Of a stretch of DNA of 64,000 nt, positions 14,970 to 30,724 are shown piece by piece. The position numbers were made by a program, and so were the translations under genes. The stretch covers positions 1-64,000 of the forward strand of contig CALXSJ010000006.1 of assembly GCA_944391115.1 (NCBI GenBank), in the 5' to 3' direction. Position 1 is the stretch's first letter, and each line of letters opens with the position of its first letter. This DNA is from an uncultured Victivallales bacterium (GTDB lineage Bacteria; Verrucomicrobiota; Lentisphaeria; Victivallales; UBA1829). The notes beneath the pieces were generated by a model. It saw only the letters and a program-made list of their open reading frames with translations, was not told the origin of the DNA and searched no databases.

Positions 14970-14986
14970 AATAAGGATTGCGCAGC

Positions 14987-16282
14987 ATGTGGAAAACGCA
15001 ATGGAAATGGCTGGCCGGCCTTGCCGGGGGATTTCTCCTCTGCTACTATTTGCCGCTTGGCACGGAACGCTTCAACCATGCGGTAATCGAATCGCTGGAA
15101 CTGGTGAAATGGTATGCCCGGGAACATGTTCTGCTCTGTCTGGTTCCAGCCTTCTTCATCGCCGGAGCGATCGGCGTATTTGTGAGCCGTGGAGCGGTTA
15201 TGCGGTATCTCGGACCGAAAGCGGAAAAATGGACCGCTTATTGCGTCGCATCCGTTTCCGGTTCCATTCTGGCGGTATGTTCGTGTACGATTCTTCCTTT
15301 GTTTGCGGGAATTTACAAAATGGGAGCGGGACTTGGCCCGGCATCCGCCTTTCTCTATTCCGGACCTGCCATCAACATTATGGCAATCGTGCTGACCGCC
15401 CGTGTGCTGGGCATTGAAATCGGATTTGCCAGGGCTGTCGGCGCGATTGGACTTTCAATCGTGATCGGGCTCTGCATGCACCTGATCTTCCGCCGGGAAG
15501 AGCAGGAAAAAGCACGCCTGGCCGCCGAACTTGCGGAGCCGGAATCCGGACGTCCGCTCTGGCAGAATGTTCTGCACATCGGCAGTATGATTGCGATTCT
15601 GGTTTTTGCCAATCTGGGAAAATCCGAAGATTCCGGAGCCTTGTGGACAGCCTTCTGGGGAGTCAAATGGTATCTGACGAGCCTTGCCGCTCTCGTGTTC
15701 GGATTCATGCTGGTCCGGTATTACGGCATGAAATGGTGGAAACTTGTGTGTGCGGCCGTTCCGGTGGTCGTATTGGCGTTCCTGTTTCCGGATATGCCGT
15801 CACTGGCGTTTACGGCGGGATTTCTCGGAATCGGGGCGTTTACGAGCACGGCAAAAGAGAGCGAACTCAGAAGCTGGTTTGAGACCGGCTGGGAGTTTGC
15901 GAAAAAGATCATGCCGCTTCTGCTCTTCGGCGTGTGGATCGCCGGACTGCTGCTGGGACGCGTTGGGCAGGAGGGGCTGATTCCCTCCGAATACGTCGGA
16001 AAACTGGTCGGCGGGAATTCTTTGCTTTCCAATTTCCTTGCGGCATTTGCCGGAGCATTCATGTATTTTGCAACGTTGACGGAAGTCCCGATTCTGGAAG
16101 GATTGACCGGGGCTGGCATGGGAAAAGGCCCCGCATTGGCGCTGCTGCTGGCAGGTCCGGCGCTCTCGTTGCCGAACATGCTGGTCATCAGCAGTGTGAT
16201 GGGAATCAGGAAAACGGTCGCTTTCGTTTCTCTGGTCATCCTGTTTTCCACGCTGCTGGGGTTTTTCTACGGGAGCTGGTGA
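14987..16282 (+). CDS. ArsP/DUF318-type permease 1
   Basis: 431 residues from ATG 14987, preceded by AAGGA. A polytopic inner-membrane protein with about ten hydrophobic segments, of the permease family that includes ArsP. The diagnostic intramembrane Cys98-x-Cys100 is in VCSCTILPLF and is followed by the family's GAGLGPASAFLYSGPAIN. ArsP proteins export trivalent organoarsenicals. Its position after arsR and before the second permease and ArsEF/ArsG-like genes supports an arsenical-efflux role. It is longer than the second permease and differs in sequence, so the two are not a recent duplication. They could form a complex or have different substrates; this cannot be decided here. Confidence 0.8.
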   Translation: MWKTQWKWLAGLAGGFLLCYYLPLGTERFNHAVIESLELVKWYAREHVLLCLVPAFFIAGAIGVFVSRGAVMRYLGPKAEKWTAYCVASVSGSILAVCSCTILPLFAGIYKMGAGLGPASAFLYSGPAINIMAIVLTARVLGIEIGFARAVGAIGLSIVIGLCMHLIFRREEQEKARLAAELAEPESGRPLWQNVLHIGSMIAILVFANLGKSEDSGALWTAFWGVKWYLTSLAALVFGFMLVRYYGMKWWKLVCAAVPVVVLAFLFPDMPSLAFTAGFLGIGAFTSTAKESELRSWFETGWEFAKKIMPLLLFGVWIAGLLLGRVGQEGLIPSEYVGKLVGGNSLLSNFLAAFAGAFMYFATLTEVPILEGLTGAGMGKGPALALLLAGPALSLPNMLVISSVMGIRKTVAFVSLVILFSTLLGFFYGSW

Positions 16283-16310
16283 AAAATTGTAAAAATACCG
16301 GAAATGGGAA

Positions 16311-17225
16311 ATGACGGGAATGAATACATTGCTGGATACATTGGATTACTTCGGCTTCATTTTTCTGGAGCTGGCGGCGCTTTTTCTCTCGATCAGTACC
16401 GCGATTTCTCTGATTCTTCAATATATTCCCCGGGAGAAATTCGGCAGATATCTTTCCGGTCGGAGCGGATACCTGATGGCCGCACTGCTCGGAAGCATCA
16501 CGCCGTTCTGCGCCTGCTCGACCATCCCGCTGACGCTGGGACTGTTGAATGCCGGGGTTGCCGTCGGTCCGGTTCTGACATTTGTGCTGGTCTCTCCTCT
16601 GCTCAATCCGGTCATCGTCGGCATGGTCTGGACATTGATGGGATGGAAGGCGTGTTTGATCTACTTTTCAGCCTGCTTCTTTTCGGCAATGGCGGGCGGA
16701 TGGCTGATGAATGCATTTCATGCGGAACGATATGTGCGTAAATTCCCTGACCCCGGGGCGAACTGCTGTTCCGGAGAAGAAACATCAGGACCGGTCACTC
16801 CCGTCACTTTCAGAAACAAACTGAAAAAAGCATTTTCCGACGCTTACGGAGATTTGCAGCGCGTGCTGCTTTATCTGATCGTCGGCACCGCGATCGGAGC
16901 GACCATCTACGGATACATTCCACAGGAGTGGATTGCATCACTGGCCGGGCCGGAGAACAGGTTCGCGATTCCACTTGCCGCGCTGGCGGGGGTGCCGCTG
17001 TACATCCGGGCGGAAAGCGCGATTCCGATCGGCCTGGCGCTGCTGCGGAAGGGGATGAGTCTCGGCGCGGTAATCGCCCTGCTCATCGGCGGTGCAGGCA
17101 TGGCGATTCCGGAAATGTCGATGCTGCTGAGTATTTTCAAGGCGCGGATTGTTGCGGCGGTTGTCGCCATGATTTTCTTCACCGCAGTGATCGGCGGTTA
17201 TCTGTTTGACTTTCTATTGAACTGA
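16311..17225 (+). CDS. ArsP-type permease 2
   Basis: 304 residues, about eight membrane helices, same permease superfamily as its upstream neighbour (28-base gap). The catalytic-type motif TPFCACSTIP (Cys67, Cys69) is closer to classical ArsP than that of permease 1, and SPLLNPVIVG follows. A loop near residue 150 carries a Cys-Cys pair (NCCSGEE). The C-terminal half repeats the pattern with AGVPLYIRAESAIPIG. Predicted to export trivalent arsenicals using thiol ligands. The start at 16311 has only a weak ribosome binding site (GGAAA); ATG 16320 is an alternative. The downstream thiol protein starts 26 bases after its stop. Confidence 0.82.
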   Translation: MTGMNTLLDTLDYFGFIFLELAALFLSISTAISLILQYIPREKFGRYLSGRSGYLMAALLGSITPFCACSTIPLTLGLLNAGVAVGPVLTFVLVSPLLNPVIVGMVWTLMGWKACLIYFSACFFSAMAGGWLMNAFHAERYVRKFPDPGANCCSGEETSGPVTPVTFRNKLKKAFSDAYGDLQRVLLYLIVGTAIGATIYGYIPQEWIASLAGPENRFAIPLAALAGVPLYIRAESAIPIGLALLRKGMSLGAVIALLIGGAGMAIPEMSMLLSIFKARIVAAVVAMIFFTAVIGGYLFDFLLN

Positions 17226-17251
17226 TTATAAAACAAGAAGGAGCAGGAAAA

Positions 17252-18091
17252 ATGACAAAAATTCAAATCCTCGGTTCAGGTTGCGACAAGTGCGGAAAAC
17301 TGGCTGCCAATGCGAAACTGGCGGCGGAACGGCTCCATCTTTCCTGTGAAATTGAAAAAGTGGAAGACATCAATCAGATCATCGGGTTCGGAGTCATGAT
17401 AACTCCGGCACTGGTGGTGGATGGCAAAGTCGTCAGTTCCGGCAAGGTGTTGACGCCGGATGAAATTACCGGTTTCCTCGCCGCTCCGGCATGTGATTGC
17501 AGCTGCCAATGCATTTCATCTGAAACGAAAACGACGGAATCTCCCTGCGGCTGCGGAGACCATGATTCCGAAAAGGAGTCCGCCGCCCCCTGCCGCTGCA
17601 GCGGCAGGAGTGACAAAAAGAAAATCATGACCATTGTGCTGTTCATTTTCGTTGTGGCAAGTATCGTGTTCATGGTCATTAAGCAGATGAAAGGAGCCTC
17701 TTCCGCCGCAGCGGCTGCGGGGACGGAACAAAAAAACGCATCTGCGGTAGCGCGGATGGACGATGTCTTGACCGTTTACTGTTTTCACGGCAACCGGCGC
17801 TGCATGACCTGCAGCAAGATCGAACAGTTGACCAAGCAGGCTCTTGAAGAAAAATATGCCGGAGCACTCGCCTCCGGAAAGATTGTCTTTCGTGCGGTTA
17901 ACGTGGAAGAGCCGGTTAATGAACACTTCGTCAGAGATTTTGGATTGACCGTCCGGGGCGTGGTGATGGCGGGAAATGGACGGTTCGAAAAATTCGACTC
18001 CGTATGGAATCTGGTCCGCGACCCGGAAAAATTTCAATCCTGTATCCAGGATGGTGTAAAAAGAATGATGGGGAAAACGCTGGATGAATGA
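17252..18091 (+). CDS. Fused ArsE-like thioredoxin and ArsF-like protein with Cys-rich linker
   Basis: 279 residues with three parts. Residues 1-76 are a small redox thioredoxin of the TM0996/MTH895 type with Cys11-x-x-Cys14 (GSGCDKCGK), cis-Pro52 and VVDGKVVSSG. Residues 81-116 are a linker with eight cysteines in CxC pairs (81/83, 85/87, 99/101, 114/116). Residues 125-144 are a membrane helix. Residues about 170-275 resemble the ArsF family (YCFHGNRRCMTCSKIE; Cys177, 184, 187). ArsE and ArsF, known as separate proteins, are linked with ArsG to reduction and efflux of nitroaromatic arsenicals; here they are one polypeptide. AAGGAG precedes ATG 17252. Its end overlaps the ArsG-like gene by eight bases. 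Confidence 0.75.
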   Translation: MTKIQILGSGCDKCGKLAANAKLAAERLHLSCEIEKVEDINQIIGFGVMITPALVVDGKVVSSGKVLTPDEITGFLAAPACDCSCQCISSETKTTESPCGCGDHDSEKESAAPCRCSGRSDKKKIMTIVLFIFVVASIVFMVIKQMKGASSAAAAAGTEQKNASAVARMDDVLTVYCFHGNRRCMTCSKIEQLTKQALEEKYAGALASGKIVFRAVNVEEPVNEHFVRDFGLTVRGVVMAGNGRFEKFDSVWNLVRDPEKFQSCIQDGVKRMMGKTLDE

Positions 18092-18749
18092 AATCTTTGC
18101 CGCTTCCGCGGCGGCTGCATGGTTCGGGTTTCTGAGCTCCATTTCGCCATGCACACTGGCAGCCAATCTTGCCGCGGTCACTTTTGCCGGGCGCAAAGTC
18201 GGACCGGTCAGGGCGGCAGTCCTTTCCGGCCTGCTCTACTCTGCGGGGCGGACAGCGAGCTGCTCCCTGCTGGGATTCGGTCTGGTCAGCGGCATCCTGA
18301 ATGCGCCGGAACTTTCACATCTGCTGCAGAAATATATGAATCTGCTCATGGGGCCACTGCTAGTTGTCGCAGCAATGATTCTGCTGGACCTGTTGAGCTT
18401 TGCCTCCCATGGCCGCGGATTGGCTGGAAAATTTCAGAATATTGCTGAGAGACTTGGGATATGGGGGGCATTTGCATTCGGTGTCATTTTTGCTCTTTCC
18501 TTCTGCCCGGCTTCCGCGGTATTGTTTTTCGGCAGTCTGCTGCCGCTTGCCGTGAAGGTTCAGTCCGCAATCCTGCTTCCAGCCGAGTTCGGGATCGCCA
18601 CCGGACTCCCTGTGCTGGCGCTGGCCTTCCTCCTGGGCTTCTGCGCAAACAGGATCGGGAGCGCATATCACAAACTTGCAAAATTCGAATTCTGGGCTCA
18701 GCGTATAACCGGTGTTTTTTTTCTGGCTGCCGGAACGGAATCGTTATGA
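18084..18749 (+). CDS. ArsG-like permease (CcdA/DsbD-type), possibly C-terminally frameshifted
   Basis: 221 residues, six or seven membrane helices. It belongs to the CcdA/DsbD-like transporter superfamily, as shown by SISPCTLAANLAAVTF (Cys23) and the symmetric SFCPASAVLFFGSLLPLA (Cys141). Coupled to the ArsEF-like gene by an 8-base overlap, it matches ArsG, predicted to export aromatic arsenicals. The frame stops at 18749 after AAGTESL. In another frame the sequence continues as GIVMTFAMTLGIRPW to 18784, which reads like the missing end of the last helix. Removing five bases (acgga, near 18735) would join them. It may be a frameshift or sequencing error, or the natural end. Confidence 0.75.
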   Translation: MNEIFAASAAAAWFGFLSSISPCTLAANLAAVTFAGRKVGPVRAAVLSGLLYSAGRTASCSLLGFGLVSGILNAPELSHLLQKYMNLLMGPLLVVAAMILLDLLSFASHGRGLAGKFQNIAERLGIWGAFAFGVIFALSFCPASAVLFFGSLLPLAVKVQSAILLPAEFGIATGLPVLALAFLLGFCANRIGSAYHKLAKFEFWAQRITGVFFLAAGTESL

Positions 18750-18931: not shown

Positions 18932-20185
18932 TCAGATTTTTGCAGAAGAAGCTGTTTCCGAAGCGAATGTCTTGTCCACCATCGCACAGACACAGGAATC
19001 GGACCATACATTTTCCGCGGTTTCGATCATGTCGATAATCGTATAAATCGGCAGGATAATCCCCAGAATCCCGATGGGAGCCTGAATGCCGGACATCAGG
19101 GACAGCGTCAGAAAATAGCAACCCATCGGCACGCCGGCGTTGCCGATTGCGGAAACAATGGAAATAAAAAACCAAAGCGTCACGGTCGACGCATTCAGAG
19201 TCCAGCCACCGTTCTGCATGACAAAAAGCGACGTGACCAGAATAAAGGCGGCACAGCCGTTCATATTGATGGTGCAGCAGATCGGCAACACAAAGCGCGC
19301 CACCTCTTTCCTGGCCTTCAAATTGTTTTCCGCGGATTCCACTGTCACCGGCAGGGTCGCCGCGGAACTCTTGGTGAAAAGAGCCATCAGAACCGCAGGC
19401 AGCATGCAGCGGAACACCTTGACCGGATGAATGCCGCGGATCAGCAGAAAGAGAGGAAGAATGAGGAAAAACTGAATCAGGTTTCCTCCCAGCACCACAG
19501 CCGCATATCTGCCCAGAGATCCGATAATGAAACCAGTCGAAACCTGTGCTGAAAGCTGTGCGGAAAATGCCGTAATCCCGAGCGGCAAAGTCCAGACCAG
19601 TCCCTTGATCAGGGCGAAGAGCACCTCCTGCATGCCGAGAATCCCTTTTAAGAGAATCTGAATGTTTTCCGACTCTTTTTTCATGGCCAGGACCAGACCG
19701 GTTGCGACAGCCACCAGAAGGATGCTTAAAACGTTGCCGGATGAAAACGGCGCAAGAATGTTGTTCGGAACCACGGAGAGAATATGACTGTAATATGAAA
19801 GGGTTCCCAGATTTTCCGGGACGCCTGTGCTTCCCTTCTGAATGACGTCCGCAGGAAGATTGCCGGGCTTTATGATCGAGAAGAGCAGGAGGCCTGCCAA
19901 TGCCGCAGCGGCAGTGGTGAGCAGGGTATACAGAATGGTATGCAGGAAAATCCGGCCTGTATTTTTCCGGGCTCCCAGCTGCGCCAGTGTTGTTGTCACA
20001 GCCAATGCGATCGTCGGCACTGCCGCAAATTGAAACAGGCGGGTGTAAACAGACGCGATGAAATTGAAAAAATCGTTCAGCCGGCCGATGCCGAGAGTTC
20101 CGAGGATCCCTCCCAGCACCAGTGCTGTCATCCAGAGTGCAAATTGTCTGCCGTTCAATCCGTTTTGCTTTTTGATTTCTTCCAT
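18932..20185 (-). CDS. Dicarboxylate/amino acid:cation symporter
   Basis: 417 residues from ATG 20185, with AGAGAG just ahead; an in-frame ATG 12 bases upstream is possible. Polytopic inner-membrane carrier of the DAACS (GltP/DctA/SstT) family. Visible hallmarks are the serine-rich re-entrant loop FTKSSAATLPVTVESAEN, the cation/substrate helix NMNGCAAFILVTSLFV (usually NMDG), GNAGVPMGCYFL and the last-helix IIDMIETAENVW. These proteins import glutamate, aspartate, serine or C4-dicarboxylates with Na+ or H+; the substrate cannot be set here. Single gene with its own promoter (20298-20326), convergent with the ars operon and not obviously linked to its neighbours. Confidence 0.88.
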   Translation of the reverse strand: MEEIKKQNGLNGRQFALWMTALVLGGILGTLGIGRLNDFFNFIASVYTRLFQFAAVPTIALAVTTTLAQLGARKNTGRIFLHTILYTLLTTAAAALAGLLLFSIIKPGNLPADVIQKGSTGVPENLGTLSYYSHILSVVPNNILAPFSSGNVLSILLVAVATGLVLAMKKESENIQILLKGILGMQEVLFALIKGLVWTLPLGITAFSAQLSAQVSTGFIIGSLGRYAAVVLGGNLIQFFLILPLFLLIRGIHPVKVFRCMLPAVLMALFTKSSAATLPVTVESAENNLKARKEVARFVLPICCTINMNGCAAFILVTSLFVMQNGGWTLNASTVTLWFFISIVSAIGNAGVPMGCYFLTLSLMSGIQAPIGILGIILPIYTIIDMIETAENVWSDSCVCAMVDKTFASETASSAKI

Positions 20186-20619
20186 GATCTCTCTCATTCA
20201 TCAGGTGATGTCCCGGATTTTCACCATGGGACTGATGTTTGATGAAGCTGCTGCTCTTTTTTATGCGGCACCGGACATCATCAAAAAAACGGATATAAGA
20301 TTAGCATGGTTTTCCCGTTTTGTCAATCGACGGGAATTGAGAGAAAACCGCGGGAAAAACACCTGTTCTTATGATTTGCCGGAATTTGACGCGCCGCTTC
20401 CGGCCTGTCTCGGGAAGCGGAGGATGCATCCGGAGCAGAGATCTGTGCAGGGAGATTGCCGGAATGATACGGCAAGTCATCAGCTGCCGGTCTTCCGGCG
20501 GATCGGGGTGCGGGAAGCTTTTCTCTCCGGCGGAAACCTTTTCCCTGCCTCCTGACAGCATCCTCCCTTCCGTCAACGCTCTGCCGGCATGAGGCGGTGT
20601 TCCGGGAGAATGCGTGTTT
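20186..20619. other. Intergenic region between symporter and dehydrogenase genes
   Basis: About 430 bases. It contains the leftward symporter promoter at 20298-20326. From 20330 to 20619 I see nothing: frames on both strands lack ribosome binding sites, and no structured RNA or repeat stands out. Confidence 0.5.
20298..20326 (-). promoter_or_regulatory. Symporter promoter
   Basis: Minus strand TTGACA (20326-20321), 17-bp spacer, TAATCT (20303-20298), about 110 bases upstream of the symporter start. Confidence 0.6.
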
Positions 20620-21720
20620 TCATGCCTTCCGCAAGAGTTTGGATTTGAATTTTTTGATCGGCTCAAATCCGCTTTTTTTGGAGATTTCCTCCGTAATCCG
20701 CACCACTTCGCGTCCCTGTTCCAGTGTAATCGGAGACGGGATTCCTTCGGTAACCTCCCTGTAAAGGTGTTCCCAGAGGACCCGCGGTTCAAAGTAATCG
20801 GGACCGCCATAGCGGTTGTGCATCTGGTATTCCGCATGCACGACGTAGAGTTTTTCATCAAAATTGCCGTATTTTTTCGGCGGGTTTTCAGGATGCGGTT
20901 TCAGGTCTTTCAGCTCCACGCAGGGATCGAGGTATTTTGCATGGATTCTGCCGTTTTCCGCGTAAATCGAGCCCCGGTTTCCGATGATTTCAATTTCGCG
21001 CGGCGGATTCAGCAGATTTCCGCCGGTCACTTCCACGTCCGCAAGACGTCCGTTGGCGCCTTTGAGAAGAATCTTGAAATAGTCGTCGCCGTCGCCGATG
21101 GAGACAATGCGGCGGACATCCGCCCAGAGATCCGTGACGGGAGACGCCAGAAACTGCAGCGCCTGATCGATCAGATGCGGTCCCCAGTTTGTGAGAAGTC
21201 CGCCGTAAAACTCCGTCATTGTCATCCAGTCGTTTCTGCGGCAGAATCCGCAGCTGCGGCAGAGTTTCACCACCTGGACGTCGCCGATCAGTCCGGAATT
21301 CATCAGTTCCATCGCCTTGACAAATTCCGGTTCAAAACGGCGGTTGTGGCGCAGAAAGAGCTTATGCGGATGTTTTTTCGCGGCTTCCAGCAGAAGATCA
21401 TATTCCGCCACGCTTGTCGCGACGGGTTTTTCCACCACAACAATTTTGCCCGCCTCCAGAATCTGGAGCGCCATGGGGACATGATCCGGATGGCGCGTGC
21501 CGATTGTCACCATGTCCAGGCCCGGATGCCTGAGCATCTCTTCCAGCGAGGTGTATTTGGCCGCGTCCTTCAGATTTTCCGGGACATCCCTCAGACGGTC
21601 CGGCGCGTGATCCGCGCAGGCAACCCACTGGAACAATTCCGGAAAACTTCCGATCTCCTCCGCATGGTTGGCTCCGATCCGTCCCACTCCGACCACTCCG
21701 ACATTCAGTTTCTTCCCCAT
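20620..21720 (-). CDS. Gfo/Idh/MocA-family NAD(P)-dependent oxidoreductase
   Basis: 366 residues. Cytosolic dehydrogenase of the Gfo/Idh/MocA family. An N-terminal Rossmann fold has VVGVGRIGANHA (GxGxxG near residue 10), followed by VVVEKPVATS, the family EKP whose Lys is usually catalytic, and the C-terminal alpha/beta domain with NWGPHLIDQAL holding the usual His. Substrates are sugars, sugar acids or inositols; the precise one is not readable. It follows the ThuA gene by 15 bases in the same operon, whose promoter matches that of the fucose-isomerase-like gene. It probably oxidises an intermediate of the same sugar route. Confidence 0.88.
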   Translation of the reverse strand: MGKKLNVGVVGVGRIGANHAEEIGSFPELFQWVACADHAPDRLRDVPENLKDAAKYTSLEEMLRHPGLDMVTIGTRHPDHVPMALQILEAGKIVVVEKPVATSVAEYDLLLEAAKKHPHKLFLRHNRRFEPEFVKAMELMNSGLIGDVQVVKLCRSCGFCRRNDWMTMTEFYGGLLTNWGPHLIDQALQFLASPVTDLWADVRRIVSIGDGDDYFKILLKGANGRLADVEVTGGNLLNPPREIEIIGNRGSIYAENGRIHAKYLDPCVELKDLKPHPENPPKKYGNFDEKLYVVHAEYQMHNRYGGPDYFEPRVLWEHLYREVTEGIPSPITLEQGREVVRITEEISKKSGFEPIKKFKSKLLRKA

Positions 21721-21735
21721 GACATTTTTCCTTTT

Positions 21736-22527
21736 TTATTTGCTGTGATGCAGTTCTGCGGTATTGAGCGTTTTCAGCGGATTTTCCGTAAGGACTTTTT
21801 CCAGCGGTTCCGGCTGGCTGGTTATGCGGTCGGGCTGAATTCCCCCGGGAAGCGCCGCCCAGCGGATTGCATTGCCGATCACTTTCAGGACGGTTGCGTC
21901 ATGATAGATCGGATAGGTTTCGTGGCCGGGCGCAAAATAGAAGATCCGTCCCGCATCCCGCTGGAACGCCACGCCGCTGCGGAACACGTTGCCGCCTTCA
22001 TACCATGACAGGAAAACGATTTTCCCGTCATCCGGGATGTCGAAGGGTTCGCCGTACATTTCCGTGTGGGGGAGGGTGAACGTTTCCGGCACCCCCTGCG
22101 CCACAGGATGGGATTTGTCCACCACCCAGATCCGCTCCTTTTCCCCGATTTCGCGCCAGCGGAGACGGCACTGCGTGCCGAGCATGCGGCGGAAAATCTT
22201 GGACAAATGGCCGGAATGAAGCACCACCAGTCCCATTCCGTGCTGAACACGGTTCTGTATTCTGTCCACCAGCGCATCCGCCACCTGTGCATGGGCGCAG
22301 TGTCCCCACCAGACCAGCACATCGGTGCTGTTCAGCACTTCATCCGGCAGTCCCTGTTCCGGCATGTCAAGGGAAACGGCACGGATGGAAAGGTCTTCCG
22401 CCGCCAGGTTTTCCGCAAGTGCGTTGTGAATGCCGTCCGGATAGATTTTCCGGATCAGGACGCCGACGGGGTCTTCCCCGCGTTCATGAATGAATTCGTT
22501 CCAGATGGTGACATTGATTTTTTGCAT
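21736..22527 (-). CDS. ThuA-domain protein
   Basis: 263 residues from ATG 22527, with TAAGGAG 5 bases upstream; an in-frame extension to 22713 is rejected because it covers the promoter. The protein has the glutamine-amidotransferase-like ThuA fold (STDVLVWWGHCAHA, GMGLVVLHSGHLSKIF, RIFYFAPGHETYPIYHD) that bacteria use in sugar metabolism, first described for trehalose utilisation. The nucleophilic-elbow position is Ser/Gly (LHSGH), as is typical of ThuA, not Cys. First gene of an operon with the dehydrogenase at 20620. Its promoter (22686-22713) carries two AraC-type half-sites, and it diverges from the AraC gene at 22760. Confidence 0.87.
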   Translation of the reverse strand: MQKINVTIWNEFIHERGEDPVGVLIRKIYPDGIHNALAENLAAEDLSIRAVSLDMPEQGLPDEVLNSTDVLVWWGHCAHAQVADALVDRIQNRVQHGMGLVVLHSGHLSKIFRRMLGTQCRLRWREIGEKERIWVVDKSHPVAQGVPETFTLPHTEMYGEPFDIPDDGKIVFLSWYEGGNVFRSGVAFQRDAGRIFYFAPGHETYPIYHDATVLKVIGNAIRWAALPGGIQPDRITSQPEPLEKVLTENPLKTLNTAELHHSK

Positions 22528-22685
22528 CGCATTCTCCTTATGAGTTGTGACTGCCGGAATTCCGCCGTTTTTCCGGTGGTTCTGACGCGCGGAGCCGCAC
22601 TGACTGGAACCCCGGAGGCTTTTGCGCCTTTTCCGACTGGCCGCCTCTTGAAAAATTGTGATTGCCTGATATTGTATTTGCAGAG

Positions 22686-22746
22686 AATATAGATGACAAT
22701 ATAGTATTTGCAATACACAAAATGAACATGTTTTTACACAAAACGA
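22686..22746 (-). promoter_or_regulatory. AraC-type activated promoter of thuA-dehydrogenase operon
   Basis: Reading on the minus strand: half-site TCGTTTTGTGT (22746-22736), 10 bases, half-site TCATTTTGTGT (22725-22715), one base, -35 TTGCAA (22713-22708), 16-bp spacer, -10 TATATT (22691-22686). The half-sites start 21 bp apart, two helical turns, as for AraC itself. The same arrangement recurs at 23610-23670. Confidence 0.75.
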
Positions 22747-22759
22747 TCAAGAAGAAGAT

Positions 22760-23560
22760 ATGAATTTCTTTTCGGAACATGAGTTCGTTTTATCGGGAAG
22801 TGTGCCGGCGTCTCTGGAAGTGGTCCATCAGGAGCCGATCTACTACGGGATACAGTTCAACTATGAGGGCCCTTTTTTTCTCCGCATCGACCACAAGACA
22901 AAATACGCGGTGGACGGTTCCTATGCCTTTGTGACCTTCCCCGGAGCGTTTTTTGAATACGGCTCCGTTGACGGACAGGCGCGTCATCACAATTTCATCT
23001 GTTCCGCGGGAAAACGGATTCAGCAGTATATCGACGGGGGGCTGCTCCGTCTGGAACGGGAGAAACCTCTTGTTCCGATCCGGAATCCTGATAAATTTCT
23101 GCAGCTGATGCTTTCCATCATGGATCTGACCCGTCATTCGGAGATCGTTCCCCCCCGGGCCGTGCTTCTTTATGAGGAGCTGCTTCTTCAGCTTCACGAG
23201 TCGCGGGAAAAACAGCAGACGGTGCCCTTCCAGATGCCTGTTTTGAAGTCTCTGATTGAGGGGATCCGGAAGCATCCCGAAAAAAGCTGGGATTTTGAAA
23301 AGGAGGCGGAAAAGTGTCATATCTCCTCCACTCATTTCCGCCGTGTGTTCAAGGCCGTGACGGGAGTGCCGCCTCAGCAGTTCCTGATTATCAACCGGTT
23401 GCGGAAGGCCACAGAACTTCTGGTCCGCACAACGGAGCCGGTCAGCACGGTGGGGGAGCTCTGCGGAATCGAAAACATGTTCTATTTTTCCAGGGTCTTC
23501 AAAGAAAAATATAAAATCTCCCCCAAAGAGTACAGACGGGAATTCACCGGTCTGGTCTGA
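22760..23560 (+). CDS. AraC-family regulator of the ThuA/FucI-like regulon
   Basis: 266 residues. The N-terminal about 150 residues form a sensor with FNYEGPFFLRIDHKTKYAV and FPGAFFEYGSVDGQARHHNF, a cupin-like pattern. The C-terminal twin HTH is clear: EKCHISSTHFRRVFKAVTG, then TVGELCGIENMFYFSRVFKE and KISPKEYR. It is transcribed divergently from thuA and followed by the fucose-isomerase-like gene. Both flanking operons carry the same tandem half-site promoter, so this protein is the obvious activator. The inducer is probably the sugar processed by the isomerase. The start at ATG 22760 has a modest AAGAAGA site. Confidence 0.88.
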   Translation: MNFFSEHEFVLSGSVPASLEVVHQEPIYYGIQFNYEGPFFLRIDHKTKYAVDGSYAFVTFPGAFFEYGSVDGQARHHNFICSAGKRIQQYIDGGLLRLEREKPLVPIRNPDKFLQLMLSIMDLTRHSEIVPPRAVLLYEELLLQLHESREKQQTVPFQMPVLKSLIEGIRKHPEKSWDFEKEAEKCHISSTHFRRVFKAVTGVPPQQFLIINRLRKATELLVRTTEPVSTVGELCGIENMFYFSRVFKEKYKISPKEYRREFTGLV

Positions 23561-23609
23561 GCCGTTTTCCTCCATTTCCGAGTCTCCCCGGAGCATACGC
23601 CTTTCATGC

Positions 23610-23670
23610 TCGTTTTGTGTAAAAACGTGTTCGTTTTCTGCATCGTAAATGCAGTTCTGCCGTTTATATT
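23610..23670 (+). promoter_or_regulatory. AraC-type activated promoter of the fucose-isomerase-like operon
   Basis: Half-site TCGTTTTGTGT (23610-23620), 10 bases, half-site TCGTTTTCTGC (23631-23641), one base, -35 TCGTAA (23643-23648), 16-bp spacer, -10 TATATT (23665-23670). The weak -35 next to the proximal half-site is what activator-dependent promoters look like. The geometry is identical to the thuA promoter. Confidence 0.75.
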
Positions 23671-23711: not shown

Positions 23712-25118
23712 ATGATGCTGAACTATCATGTCAGAATCGGACTGGTTCCCGTCCGTCGCGACTGTTCCCCCCGGCCGGGGGCGTTCAACTGGGAAATCGC
23801 GGAGGAACGCGGCAGAAAAGCCGTTGCTTACATTGAACGGCATTTTTCCGGCGAAAATGTCTCCTTTTCCGATCTCAAGGGCGTGAACGAGGCGGAGACA
23901 TTGTATTCCGAAAACGATGTGGACAAGGTGGTGGAACATTTCCGCAGAGAGAAGGTGGATGCCGTTTTTCTCATCAATGCCAATTTCGGCAGCGAGGAGG
24001 CGGCGGGGCTCCTGGCCGAGAAGATGAACGTCCCGGTTCTGCTGTGGGCGATCCTTGACGATGTTTTCATGCCGGACGGACTGCGCTATACCGACAGCCA
24101 GTGCGGCGTCTTCGGCATCGCAAGACAGCTTCAGCGCTGCAATCTCCCTTTCAGTTTCATCAATACCTGCTGCCTGGAGGATGAGATCCTGGCGCGGGGA
24201 GTGGATCAGTTCATCCGGGTCGTCTGCATGGTGAAGAATTTCCGCGGCATGAGAATCGGCACGGTGGGAACCCGTCCGAAACCCTTCTGCTCCGTCATCA
24301 TCAACGAAGGCGAACTTCTGCAGCGTTTCGGCATCCATACCGTTCCGGTCAATATGGCGGTCGCGGCCGATCAATTCAGGCGGATTCTGGCGGAACGGGA
24401 CGCGGAGCTGGAAAAGGAGGCGGAATTATTGAATTCCATGTATCAGATAGACGGGAAAACCGCCCCTCTTCTCAAAAGAATCTATGCATTCGTCCTGCTT
24501 TTCCGGGAGTTGTTCCAGGAACATCGTCTCAGCGCCGTTTCCGCCGAGTGCTGGACGGCAATGGGACTCGCCTGCGGCGCCTTGCCCTGCACCGCGTACG
24601 GGATTCTTCTGGATCAGGGATATCTGATCAGTTGTGAAAATGATGTGCATTGCGCCATCACCATGGCGCTGCTCTCCTGTGCGGCGCTGGGGAAGAAGCC
24701 GCCGTTTCTCGGGGAATTCACCGTACGGCATCCCGAGGACAGAAACGTGGAGCTTCTGTGGCATTGCGGCCCGTTCCCCTATTCCGTCCGGGATGAGGGA
24801 AGGTGCGCCAGGGTGGTTGACCAGCGGCAGTGGTTTGAAGTGAAGAAAGGCACCTACACCCTTGCCCGTTTCGATCAGGACGACGGCAGATACCGCCTTC
24901 TGAGCGGCACCTGCCGGAGTGCGGAAGGGCCTTATACGAACGGGACCTATCTGTGGGCGCGTTTTGACGATCTGGACAGATGGGAGCGCAAACTGATCGA
25001 AGGGCCTTACATCCACCATGTCGCGGAAATCGAAGGGGAATACACCAATGTCCTGCGCGAATTCTGCAAGTACGTGCCGCACCTGACCATTGATGAGGTG
25101 ACAGGGAATCATGAGTGA
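23712..25118 (+). CDS. L-fucose/L-arabinose isomerase-like protein
   Basis: 468 residues, cytosolic. The L-fucose isomerase fold is suggested by AVFLINANFGSEEAAGLLAEK, FRGMRIGTVGTRP, then AVSAECWTAMG (Glu near 278), SCENDVHCAITMALLS (Asp near 311) and VELLWHCGPFPYS (His near 349). These agree with the Glu, Asp and His that bind the divalent metal in FucI. It is shorter than classical FucI (about 590). Family members interconvert an aldose and a ketose; the exact sugar is unknown. Translated with the downstream DUF4867 gene (8-base overlap), from a promoter shared in design with the thuA-dehydrogenase operon. AAAGGAAAGAGAGG precedes two tandem ATGs (23712, 23715). Confidence 0.85.
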   Translation: MMLNYHVRIGLVPVRRDCSPRPGAFNWEIAEERGRKAVAYIERHFSGENVSFSDLKGVNEAETLYSENDVDKVVEHFRREKVDAVFLINANFGSEEAAGLLAEKMNVPVLLWAILDDVFMPDGLRYTDSQCGVFGIARQLQRCNLPFSFINTCCLEDEILARGVDQFIRVVCMVKNFRGMRIGTVGTRPKPFCSVIINEGELLQRFGIHTVPVNMAVAADQFRRILAERDAELEKEAELLNSMYQIDGKTAPLLKRIYAFVLLFRELFQEHRLSAVSAECWTAMGLACGALPCTAYGILLDQGYLISCENDVHCAITMALLSCAALGKKPPFLGEFTVRHPEDRNVELLWHCGPFPYSVRDEGRCARVVDQRQWFEVKKGTYTLARFDQDDGRYRLLSGTCRSAEGPYTNGTYLWARFDDLDRWERKLIEGPYIHHVAEIEGEYTNVLREFCKYVPHLTIDEVTGNHE

Positions 25119-25800
25119 TGTTTTAACTCTTCTGCGGGAGAAAAATCCCCGTCTGGCGTTTTATCCGGTCTGGGACGCGCGGTTCCGCCGCTTCGGGCGC
25201 GTGGTTGATTTTGACGGCGGAAAACTGATTGCGCAGGCCCTTCGGGTGCCGATGCCGGAAAACGGGACGAAATACCTGACGGACATGCCGGAGCTGGAGA
25301 CTCCGGCGGAGCTTGCCGCGGCGCAGAATGCCCTGTTCGGCCAGACGCCCTGTCAGATCGGCATGTGCTGGGGCTGGAACAGCCGTCTGAACTGTCTGGA
25401 ATACCACCGTTCAAGCGAATTCAATATTGCGGCCGGGGATTTTGTGCTTCTGCTTGCCTCGCAGATGGATATGGAGGGCGATGAACTGCCTCCCGGCAGG
25501 ATAACGGCCTTTTATGTGCCGCGCAATACGGCGCTTGAGATTTATGCCACGACACTGCATTTCTGCCCGTGCCAGGTCAGCGATGACGGTTTCCGCTGTA
25601 TCGTGATCCTGCCGCGCGGCACCAATCGGCCATTGAAAGCGGAGCGTTCCGCCGTCGGGGACGGCCGCCTGCTGTGGTCGGAGAACAAATGGCTGATTGC
25701 CCATGAGGAGGCGCCGGCGGCAGGCCGCGGAGCATATCCCGGATTGCACGGAGAGAACTTTACGGTCAACCTGCCATTCCGCCGTGAGACGCCGGCCTGA
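25111..25800 (+). CDS. DUF4867-family protein
   Basis: 229 residues, no signal peptide or membrane segment. It resembles the DUF4867 family, small cytosolic proteins of sugar-utilisation operons without a proven activity. Recognisable parts are LTDMPELETPAELAAAQNALFG, MCWGWNSRLNCLEYHRSSEF and FYVPRNTALEIYATTLHFCPC, which read like a cupin-type beta barrel. Its ATG lies eight bases inside the isomerase gene, so the two are translationally coupled. The constant pairing with isomerases suggests an epimerase, mutarotase or isomerase role for the same sugar; this is only inference from context. The stop is 14 bases from the end of the convergent GH39-like gene. Confidence 0.75.
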   Translation: MSDVLTLLREKNPRLAFYPVWDARFRRFGRVVDFDGGKLIAQALRVPMPENGTKYLTDMPELETPAELAAAQNALFGQTPCQIGMCWGWNSRLNCLEYHRSSEFNIAAGDFVLLLASQMDMEGDELPPGRITAFYVPRNTALEIYATTLHFCPCQVSDDGFRCIVILPRGTNRPLKAERSAVGDGRLLWSENKWLIAHEEAPAAGRGAYPGLHGENFTVNLPFRRETPA

Positions 25801-28213: not shown

Positions 28214-30724
28214 TCATTCTCCTTTCCCGAGAAAGCGGATGAAGCCGTACATGTTCATATTATGATTGTTTCCGAGCGTCATGGCGGTTCCGGAATATTC
28301 TTTCGGATCGCCGGCTTTGTTGCGGACGATGTTGATCAGCCAGGAATCGTAGGGCTTCGGAGTTTTTCTGTTCAGATCGGCGTAGGGAATGAAAAACATG
28401 AAACGCCATGAGTTTTCATCATATTCTGCAATGGAGCGGAAGCCGGGAGAGGACCATTTCCCGTTGTAGGGCTTCCTGACCGGAATGAATTCCTGCGTGC
28501 CGAAATGGAGGTTGTTCAGCGGATCCGCGGCATAATGGAAAAGATGACTTTTTTCCAGCCCCGGCGAAATCAGGATTTCGACGCTGCAGTTTGTCCAGAC
28601 TCCTTTTCCCGGAACGACTTTCGGCGGATGCTGCATCCGCATGTATCCGTAAATGCCGTTTCCGTCCCATGCGAGCTTGGCCGTGACAGGGAACTGCGGC
28701 TTGTCGTCCGTTCCCCTGGGGTCGCGCATTTCCATCGGCGCGATTCCCTTCCAGAAGGCGGCATCCTTCTTGAAATCCAGGAAGACCTTTTCGCCGTTCA
28801 GAATCTGATGCACGCCGTACATCGGCCGCTCATAAACCAGACGCGTTTTCTGCTTCTGAATCGCCTTTTCCCATGGGTGGCGGAAAAGACGGACCCGTTT
28901 TCCTTCCACGCTCTCTTCCGGAACAGCCGCCTTCGCCTGTTTCAGGAAATTTTCCATTTTCTCATAGACGGAAACCGGATAAAGCGGCGTATCTTCCGCA
29001 GACGGCATATAATATTTGAGACAGGCTTCCATCAGGAGATCGTAAAAGCCTTTGACATACGGCGCCGCCTTGCCGTAGAACGGCTTCCAGTGTTCCTCCA
29101 TGGCTGCGGCAACGTTGAAATCCGGGTTCCACTGCGCTTTCGCGGCCGCGTAGTTGGAATAATAATACCACCATTCCAGAGAGCCGTACTGATCAATGAA
29201 AAGATTGTCGTTTCCGAGAGAGTCCCCCAGATCTTTGACCACATCGCCGGCAAAGGACGGCGCAAGGGCCCGTGCAAATTCAAATCCCGGGACGTTGTAG
29301 AGCCAGAGGGCGGCGACCGGACGGCCTCCGAGACACTCCTGCCATTCCCGGATGATTGTTTTCCAGGTTTCGGCGATGTTTCTGTTCCGGATTTTCTTCA
29401 TCCCGTAGTGACAGACGCAGAGTTCCACATTGTCGGGAAGCGCCCGCCATTTCGGATTCAGCGGAGCTCTGGTGTAATTGGAATAAGGCATCAGAATCAG
29501 TTTCTTTCCGGGAAATTCCTCTTTGATGCGTCGGGCAAAATACTGATTGAATCTTCCGTAAATGTCGCTGTAGGCATATCCCCGTCTGACCATTTCCGGC
29601 GTCAGAAGTTTTTCTCTGACGACAATGGGATGGGACGCCATTTCCGAGGGCGGCACGGACGTGTCGCATTGTCCGAATGGAATATATCCCTGCAGCAGAG
29701 TCGCCCGCGGCCAGCCGGCCGGATTGTCCCTGCCGTTGGAGGCGTAAAAGCGTTTCAGGGAGTCAATCAGGAGGTCGGCAAGACGGAGGTCCACGACGTT
29801 CAGGTAATTGCCGATGCCTTTGGGATCGTAATAGCGTTGTCCGCTTGCGGAGGTGGAAAAGAGAATGTCCATTTTGTCCGGATACGATTTCGCCAGCTTC
29901 AGGGGATTCGGGGCGTGGCCTGCCCAGAAGGAGGATCCGGATTCCATCCGCCAGCGCTCGAAGAACGGGACGGTGTCGGGATAACTGGTCTTTCCGATGA
30001 ATTCCCCGAGCAGCGGCTCCCACTTTTTCCTGTTTTTTTCTCCTGTCATGCACCAGTAAACCCATTTCGGCGTCCGCTGAATGAACCTTGGCGCATCGCT
30101 GTAGTGGAACGGTTCCAGGTTCAGGGTTCCGGTTTTCGGCCACAGGGAGCCGTATGGCCCGGGGAAAAAGAAGCGGCATCCGAGAATGCGTTCCGCGAAA
30201 TCGTATGCGCCCCACAGGGTGCCGCGGAAGGTTCTGCCGGAAAACCACGGAAAGCCGGGGATGGATTCCGAATCGCTTCCGACAATTGCGACTCCTCCGG
30301 GAAAAGTTGTAATTTCATATCCCTGCACCGGCTGCGCTTTCGCGGAAAGTCCGAGGTTTTTCGTCTGTTCGCTTTCCCCCAGAAAGAACAAAAGCGGATA
30401 TTTCTGTTTTGCCTGCTCCATTTCTTTGAGATCAAACACCTCCGGCTTTTCGCCTGTGCATTTTTCAAAGGCCTCCTGCAGAAGTTCCGCGGCGGGAAGA
30501 ACGGACATATTCGCCTTGTGGACGGTTTTTTCCCCGCACTGCCTGTCAATGACGATCGCAAAGCGGAGCTTCCCGTTTTCCACAAGAGTCAGTGGTTCAT
30601 GCCGGGGAGCTTTCCGGATCCTGACCGGGGTCAGCGCCGGATTTCTCAGATCGAATGCGGATGCCGTCAGCAGAAAAACGGCTGTCAGCAGAACGGATGA
30701 TGCATATTTTATGTTTCGGAACAT
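28214..30724 (-). CDS. Secreted DUF4838-family protein with CBM9-like C-terminus
   Basis: 836 residues; signal peptide in residues 1-23 (SSVLLTAVFLLTASA). The N-terminal domain carries ELLQEAFEKCTGEKPEVFDL, as in GH67/GH20-type N-terminal domains, then WGAYDFAERILGCRFFFPGPYG, the DUF4838 signature region, and a barrel-like core with ELCVCHYGMKK. From about residue 640 a CBM9-like sandwich follows (FLDFKKDAAFWKGI, AYLHY-type strands, VEILISPGLEKSHLFHYAADP). Substrate unknown; a secreted alpha-glycuronidase-like or hexosaminidase-like activity is an inference. It lies between the hairpin repeat plus pseudopilin upstream and the unknown secreted gene downstream. GGAGGGGAC precedes ATG 30724. Confidence 0.77.
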   Translation of the reverse strand: MFRNIKYASSVLLTAVFLLTASAFDLRNPALTPVRIRKAPRHEPLTLVENGKLRFAIVIDRQCGEKTVHKANMSVLPAAELLQEAFEKCTGEKPEVFDLKEMEQAKQKYPLLFFLGESEQTKNLGLSAKAQPVQGYEITTFPGGVAIVGSDSESIPGFPWFSGRTFRGTLWGAYDFAERILGCRFFFPGPYGSLWPKTGTLNLEPFHYSDAPRFIQRTPKWVYWCMTGEKNRKKWEPLLGEFIGKTSYPDTVPFFERWRMESGSSFWAGHAPNPLKLAKSYPDKMDILFSTSASGQRYYDPKGIGNYLNVVDLRLADLLIDSLKRFYASNGRDNPAGWPRATLLQGYIPFGQCDTSVPPSEMASHPIVVREKLLTPEMVRRGYAYSDIYGRFNQYFARRIKEEFPGKKLILMPYSNYTRAPLNPKWRALPDNVELCVCHYGMKKIRNRNIAETWKTIIREWQECLGGRPVAALWLYNVPGFEFARALAPSFAGDVVKDLGDSLGNDNLFIDQYGSLEWWYYYSNYAAAKAQWNPDFNVAAAMEEHWKPFYGKAAPYVKGFYDLLMEACLKYYMPSAEDTPLYPVSVYEKMENFLKQAKAAVPEESVEGKRVRLFRHPWEKAIQKQKTRLVYERPMYGVHQILNGEKVFLDFKKDAAFWKGIAPMEMRDPRGTDDKPQFPVTAKLAWDGNGIYGYMRMQHPPKVVPGKGVWTNCSVEILISPGLEKSHLFHYAADPLNNLHFGTQEFIPVRKPYNGKWSSPGFRSIAEYDENSWRFMFFIPYADLNRKTPKPYDSWLINIVRNKAGDPKEYSGTAMTLGNNHNMNMYGFIRFLGKGE

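Follow-up and report, generated by a model that had tools for sequence, protein, structure and literature searches.

The window, a stretch of 64,000 nucleotides from an uncultured Victivallales bacterium, carries a gene for an AraC/XylS-family regulator flanked by a thuA gene on the opposite strand and by a sugar isomerase gene on its own strand. The genes and promoter elements of the locus are as follows, with positions counted from the first letter of the window.

18932-20197, minus strand: SDF-family symporter (PF00375), downstream of gfo
20620-21720, minus strand: Gfo/Idh/MocA dehydrogenase (gfo), 366 aa (PF01408, PF22725), 15 bp 3' of thuA
21736-22527, minus strand: ThuA family protein, 263 aa (PF06283, E 4.2e-34, 119.1 bits against a cut-off of 33.4; solved relative 1t0b)
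22686-22713, minus strand: thuA core promoter, TTGCAA-16-TATATT, its -35 box one base 3' of the proximal half-site
22715-22746, minus strand: operator 1, direct half-sites TCGTTTTGTGT-N10-TCATTTTGTGT, oriented to thuA
22760-23560, plus strand: AraC/XylS-family regulator, 266 aa (PF12833, E 3.7e-18, 66 bits; PF00165, 58.3 bits)
23610-23641, plus strand: operator 2, TCGTTTTGTGT-N10-TCGTTTTCTGC, 5' of the isomerase-DUF4867 operon
23643-23670, plus strand: isomerase core promoter, TCGTAA-16-TATATT
23712-25118, plus strand: AraI/FucI-fold sugar isomerase, 468 aa (structure model with pLDDT 85)
25111-25800, plus strand: DUF4867 cupin protein, 229 aa (PF16161, E 1e-67, positions 3-200 of 201), overlapping the isomerase gene by 8 bp

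The regulator possesses the C-terminal double helix-turn-helix domain of the AraC/XylS family according to Pfam. No Pfam match was obtained for its N-terminal domain (residues 1-150), and a single-sequence structure model (pLDDT 42) was unreliable. Elsewhere in the window, four consecutive plus-strand genes at 14978-18749 encode two permease-like membrane proteins, a short protein containing a CDKC motif and one more membrane protein; they have the appearance of a distinct metal or redox cluster.

The two promoter elements share one design, consisting of TCRTTTTSTGY, 10 bases, a second TCRTTTTSTGY, one base, a -35 box, 16 bases and TATATT. The first-pass annotation had placed two such promoters here with the AraC gene (22760-23560) between them, and its coordinates, half-sites, spacing and TATATT boxes were all reproduced in the sequence. 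The araBAD-like offset that it had proposed was measured at both sites, the half-sites being direct and starting 21 bp, or two helical turns, apart. Operators 1 and 2 are identical at 28 of 32 positions, counting half-sites and spacer, and the whole 61-bp promoters at 47. The runner-up 32-mer within the 64 kb window reaches only 20 of 32, and the best ungapped 32-mer match in first-order Markov resamples of both intergenic regions averaged 18.2, with a maximum of 21. As the likeness continues through the spacer, the half-site probably extends beyond 11 bp.

Class II activation at araBAD involves a direct repeat with two-turn spacing and a site at the -35 box. At both promoters in the window the proximal half-site likewise adjoins the -35 box, with a fixed distance to the -10 box. 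Taking E. coli AraC/araBAD (araI1-araI2) from general knowledge, the two systems have in common an AraC-family regulator, direct half-sites 21 bp apart with the proximal one at -35, and a regulator gene adjoining its target. On the other hand, the half-site sequence in the window differs, two separate operons flank the regulator, and an araO2-like distal looping site was not identified here; a pattern search of the genome for full two-half-site operators found no third one. By comparative genomics, an AraC-family regulator with an araBAD-like class II operator and two target operons is strongly supported. An AraC dimer would bind each direct repeat with its 21 bp start-to-start spacing and act as a local class II activator at both promoters, with thuA-gfo driven from operator 1, between araC and thuA, and isomerase-DUF4867 from operator 2, 3' of araC.

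The same geometry does not by itself fully separate activation from repression, and a half-site that adjoins the -35 box would also suit a regulator that represses both operons or that acts only as a ligand-relieved repressor. We consider this unlikely, because each operator lies upstream of its core promoter and not over it, which favours activation, and because the -35 box of the isomerase promoter is very weak. A sigma-70 scan returned zero matches at that promoter, in keeping with a need for an activator. Activation of both operons by AraC is thus the reading that we prefer. As for the regulator gene itself, 13 bp separate operator 1 from the start codon of araC. Immediately upstream of this operator, a sequence resembling a promoter for araC is seen (TTTGCA-17-TATAGT, 22677-22705). 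Bound AraC should therefore hinder transcription of araC and repress it. The thuA leader from the operator 1 promoter would span about 150 nt (22528-22680, minus strand). A further sequence that resembles a promoter is found just 3' of the thuA core promoter; it reads TTGTCA-17-TACAAT (minus strand, 22699-22671) and could represent an AraC-independent promoter of thuA.

A scan of the genome with the two-half-site model had been proposed as a check in the first-pass annotation. In the 3.66 Mb genome, its exact pattern occurs at two places with no mismatches, which are the two promoters, and at four more, all with 3 mismatches. These four were considered as regulon sites and rejected as chance matches; none of the pathway genes searched for adjoins them. 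A relaxed consensus allowing up to 2 mismatches also recovered only the two window sites in the whole genome. With two sites only, the many equally good matches elsewhere that would have spoken against the regulon were not seen. We also looked for the operator at the kinase/aldolase cluster, the second thuA locus and the second isomerase locus of this genome, and found none.

Loci with AraC homologues were gathered from 149 related genomes including the one under study, and homologues at E≤1e-30 were present in 77 of the 149. The order has at least 13 further genomes in which an operator sits near the start codon of the araC orthologue and faces the divergent gene, as operator 1 does in the window. 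Among the loci most similar to the window AraC, the distance from operator to start codon is 6-18 bp (41 bp in one genome), compared with 13 bp in the window, and a TATAAT-like -10 box follows 23-24 bp 3' of the operator in the relatives. The consensus across genera is TcGTTTtGT.tA.Aaa...GTTt.TTTTcT..ATT, followed after about 20 bases by TATAAT. At several AraC homologues of greater divergence, the operator is weak or absent. In two loci (L050, L055), a DUF4838 gene lies about 1.4 kb from the AraC homologue and the operator is unrecognisable; the window encodes a 36% identical DUF4838 protein (28214-30724, minus strand), about 5 kb from its AraC gene.

All 15 places that match the pattern with 0-1 mismatch in the 149 genomes adjoin an AraC orthologue, 14 of them being the divergent site and one being operator 2 of the window; as the pattern was derived from the divergent sites, their recovery is a matter of construction and the specificity is the informative part. 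The backwards pattern gave three matches in total at up to 3 mismatches over the same 149 genomes. A matrix trained on the other genomes only, with this genome left out, assigned 42.2 bits to operator 1 and 40.9 bits to operator 2, against a maximum of 18.4 bits in 417 kb of unrelated, mostly clostridial DNA. Viewed as an alignment of orthologous loci, the operator is a specific and conserved phylogenetic footprint of a local AraC regulon. Binding by AraC here is predicted, and the genome harbours other AraC-family genes (one at C4:104558), so that the elements might in principle serve another regulator and lie near araC by chance. Taking into account that every site with 0-1 mismatch adjoins an AraC orthologue, we regard this as highly improbable and assign the operators to the neighbouring AraC. 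No usable literature was retrieved by our searches on AraC regulons in this bacterial group or on a 21-bp rule for AraC half-sites.

The AraC orthologue is, in most genomes, divergent from an isomerase, thuA or gfo gene. Some pattern matches with 3 mismatches precede unlinked genes of these kinds: thuA in genome G019, and in G012 both a gfo gene and a TIM-barrel-thuA-gfo run. The thuA loci of two sister genomes (G024, G026) carry the operator with the -10 box in place. All of these remote copies, which come from one genus, have a -10-like box at the expected distance. Operators in front of unlinked thuA and gfo genes are evidence for one regulon that is independent of gene adjacency. In G008, a genome of the same family, the genes form one run, pfkB-thuA-gfo-isomerase-kduI-FGGY-glcD-FeS-aldolase, indicating that the window genes probably provide the upper steps of a sugar pathway of the kinase-aldolase type. 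Divergent from this run is a symporter gene 68% identical to the window SDF gene, and the window symporter may thus transport the pathway substrate. The symporter family and KduI weakly hint at an acidic sugar. The remote operators and the G008 run bear out the earlier proposal that ThuA, the Gfo/Idh/MocA dehydrogenase and the isomerase belong together, and from these gene arrangements the three enzymes very probably serve one sugar-breakdown pathway.

A counterpart of the lower part is present in the same genome on contig C12 at approximately 27.1-37.7 kb (L236 8134-18701), and comprises PfkB, KduI, FGGY, an FAD oxidase (GlcD), a cysteine-rich protein in the Fe-S position and an aldolase, with LarA and ETF genes divergent. 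These are the genes found with isomerase and DUF4867 in clostridial clusters. The C12 cluster contains neither isomerase, DUF4867 nor operator, and its counterparts in relatives contain an isomerase of their own, which makes the tie between the window isomerase and C12 indirect. In the proposed pathway, a sugar or glycoside would be the substrate of the Gfo/Idh/MocA protein and ThuA, a ketose would be formed by the AraI-fold isomerase, and the degradation may be completed by the kinases and the class II aldolase of contig C12 (G000:C12). The inducer would probably be the sugar or a derivative, and AraC with its inducer would switch on the upper steps.

Two known systems resemble the thuA-gfo pair. 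In the ThuA-ThuB system of rhizobia (trehalose/sucrose oxidation, from general knowledge), ThuA is also paired with a Gfo/Idh/MocA dehydrogenase; the window locus, in contrast, lacks trehalose transporter genes and is joined to a sugar isomerase. The nearest solved chain to the window dehydrogenase by sequence is DgpA2, a glycoside oxidoreductase. With DgpA-type glycoside 3-oxidases the locus has in common the Gfo/Idh/MocA protein and, in the operons of relatives, a xylose-isomerase-like TIM barrel, but evidence of a C-glycoside lyase is absent from the window and the likeness is at the family level only. A search of the literature on ThuA/ThuB chemistry gave nothing usable.

The isomerase had been described as FucI-like, with L-fucose, L-rhamnose and arabinose named as candidate sugars. 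The label proved loose. The Fucose_iso_C domain scores 14 bits against a cut-off of 29.3, and the structure model gives query-normalised TM scores of 0.75-0.84 to L-arabinose isomerases and 0.71-0.74 to FucI. E309, E335, H351 and H436 sit at what we take to be the positions of the metal ligands of L-arabinose isomerase. By its structure model, the enzyme is an AraI-fold isomerase and not FucI proper, and the named sugars are without specific support. A second isomerase of the same superfamily is encoded in this genome (L166 8601-9935, G000 contig C15); it is 26-27% identical to the window isomerase and no operator is nearby.

The DUF4867 protein aligns to the solved SqvB (9gyy) and retains the 2His-2Glu metal ligands, as E97, H99, E103 and H150. 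The structure of this family (SqvB/SftX; PDB 9gyy, 9gyz) has been solved and its metal ligands named (PMC11968277), and DUF4867 proteins have been proposed to open or mutarotate the sugar ring for partner isomerases, with activity tests negative so far (PMC9594981, PMC11968277). The window protein shares with SqvB/SftX the Pfam family, the four aligned ligands and a gene beside an isomerase of the AraI/FucI superfamily, and probably assists ring opening for the isomerase. The functional lead claimed for DUF4867 in the first-pass annotation is not new, since it is already in print for SqvB/SftX. The gene was absent from all 148 other relatives searched, and its assignment to the regulon depends on a single operon of a single genome.

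These similarities raise the question of sulfoglycolysis. DUF4867 is common in sulfoglycolytic clusters acting on sulfoquinovose (PMC11968277, PMC9594981), and among curated models the isomerase matches best the NCBIfam sulfoquinovose isomerase SftI (E 4.8e-34). Nevertheless, the SftI score of 117.9 bits is far from the cut-off of 700, no sulfofructose transaldolase, transketolase or sulfolactaldehyde reductase is found among the genes annotated at the locus, and the published network has its largest DUF4867 groups next to genes for non-sulfonated sugars (PMC11968277). Unlike SqvB/SftX, the window protein has no annotated sulfoglycolysis genes at its locus and would be co-controlled with ThuA and the Gfo/Idh/MocA dehydrogenase. 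We thus judge a sulfoglycolytic role quite unlikely.

The best matches to the DUF4867 protein in other species are mostly from Firmicutes. Three clostridial clusters (L110, L111, L115) contain DUF4867 together with an isomerase 51-60% identical to that of the window, compared with at most about 40% within the order, and in Clostridia these genes share clusters with PfkB and aldolase. The cluster L110 encodes the isomerase, an FAD-linked oxidase, an Fe-S protein, a class II aldolase, a PfkB kinase, KduI/IolB, DUF4867, an FGGY kinase and ETF. Horizontal acquisition of the isomerase-DUF4867 pair is likely on these sequence comparisons. As for its promoter, 25 columns vary among orthologues, and both promoters of the window share the same letter at 14 of these; the median over all pairs is 7. 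This fits a duplication of the araC-thuA promoter, without proving it. We tentatively suggest, as a possibility still open to considerable doubt, that the acquired operon joined the resident AraC regulon through a copied araC-thuA operator-promoter, replacing the AraC-controlled isomerase of the relatives, and that the regulon serves an uncharacterised pathway in which ThuA and Gfo/Idh/MocA act before an AraI-fold isomerase, FGGY/PfkB kinases and a class II aldolase.

The agreement at variable columns, and the location of araC between the two promoters, would also be accounted for if operator 2 were a functionless recent copy left by local duplication. However, operator 2 retains the exact spacing, the -10 box and a ribosome-binding site ahead of a coding operon, and most of its differences from operator 1 are letters allowed at the sites of other genomes. 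A functionless copy is therefore very unlikely, and we regard operator 2 as a working site. The model as a whole, in which AraC would bind both operators, activate thuA-gfo and isomerase-DUF4867, repress its own gene and control the upper steps of a sugar pathway, appears to us highly probable, with binding, activation, self-repression, inducer, reactions and substrate each a prediction.

The type of circuit is an ordinary one that is already known; the regulatory claim is well supported and the pathway is a good lead. The results identify, in a bacterial order that has received little study, an operator of an AraC regulator that is both specific and conserved, and through it ThuA, a Gfo/Idh/MocA dehydrogenase and an AraI-fold isomerase are brought together as members of one regulon. 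Little biochemistry has been assigned to ThuA proteins, and the regulon thus limits the functions to be tested; it also places a DUF4867 protein beside a sugar isomerase outside the characterised sulfoglycolysis clusters.
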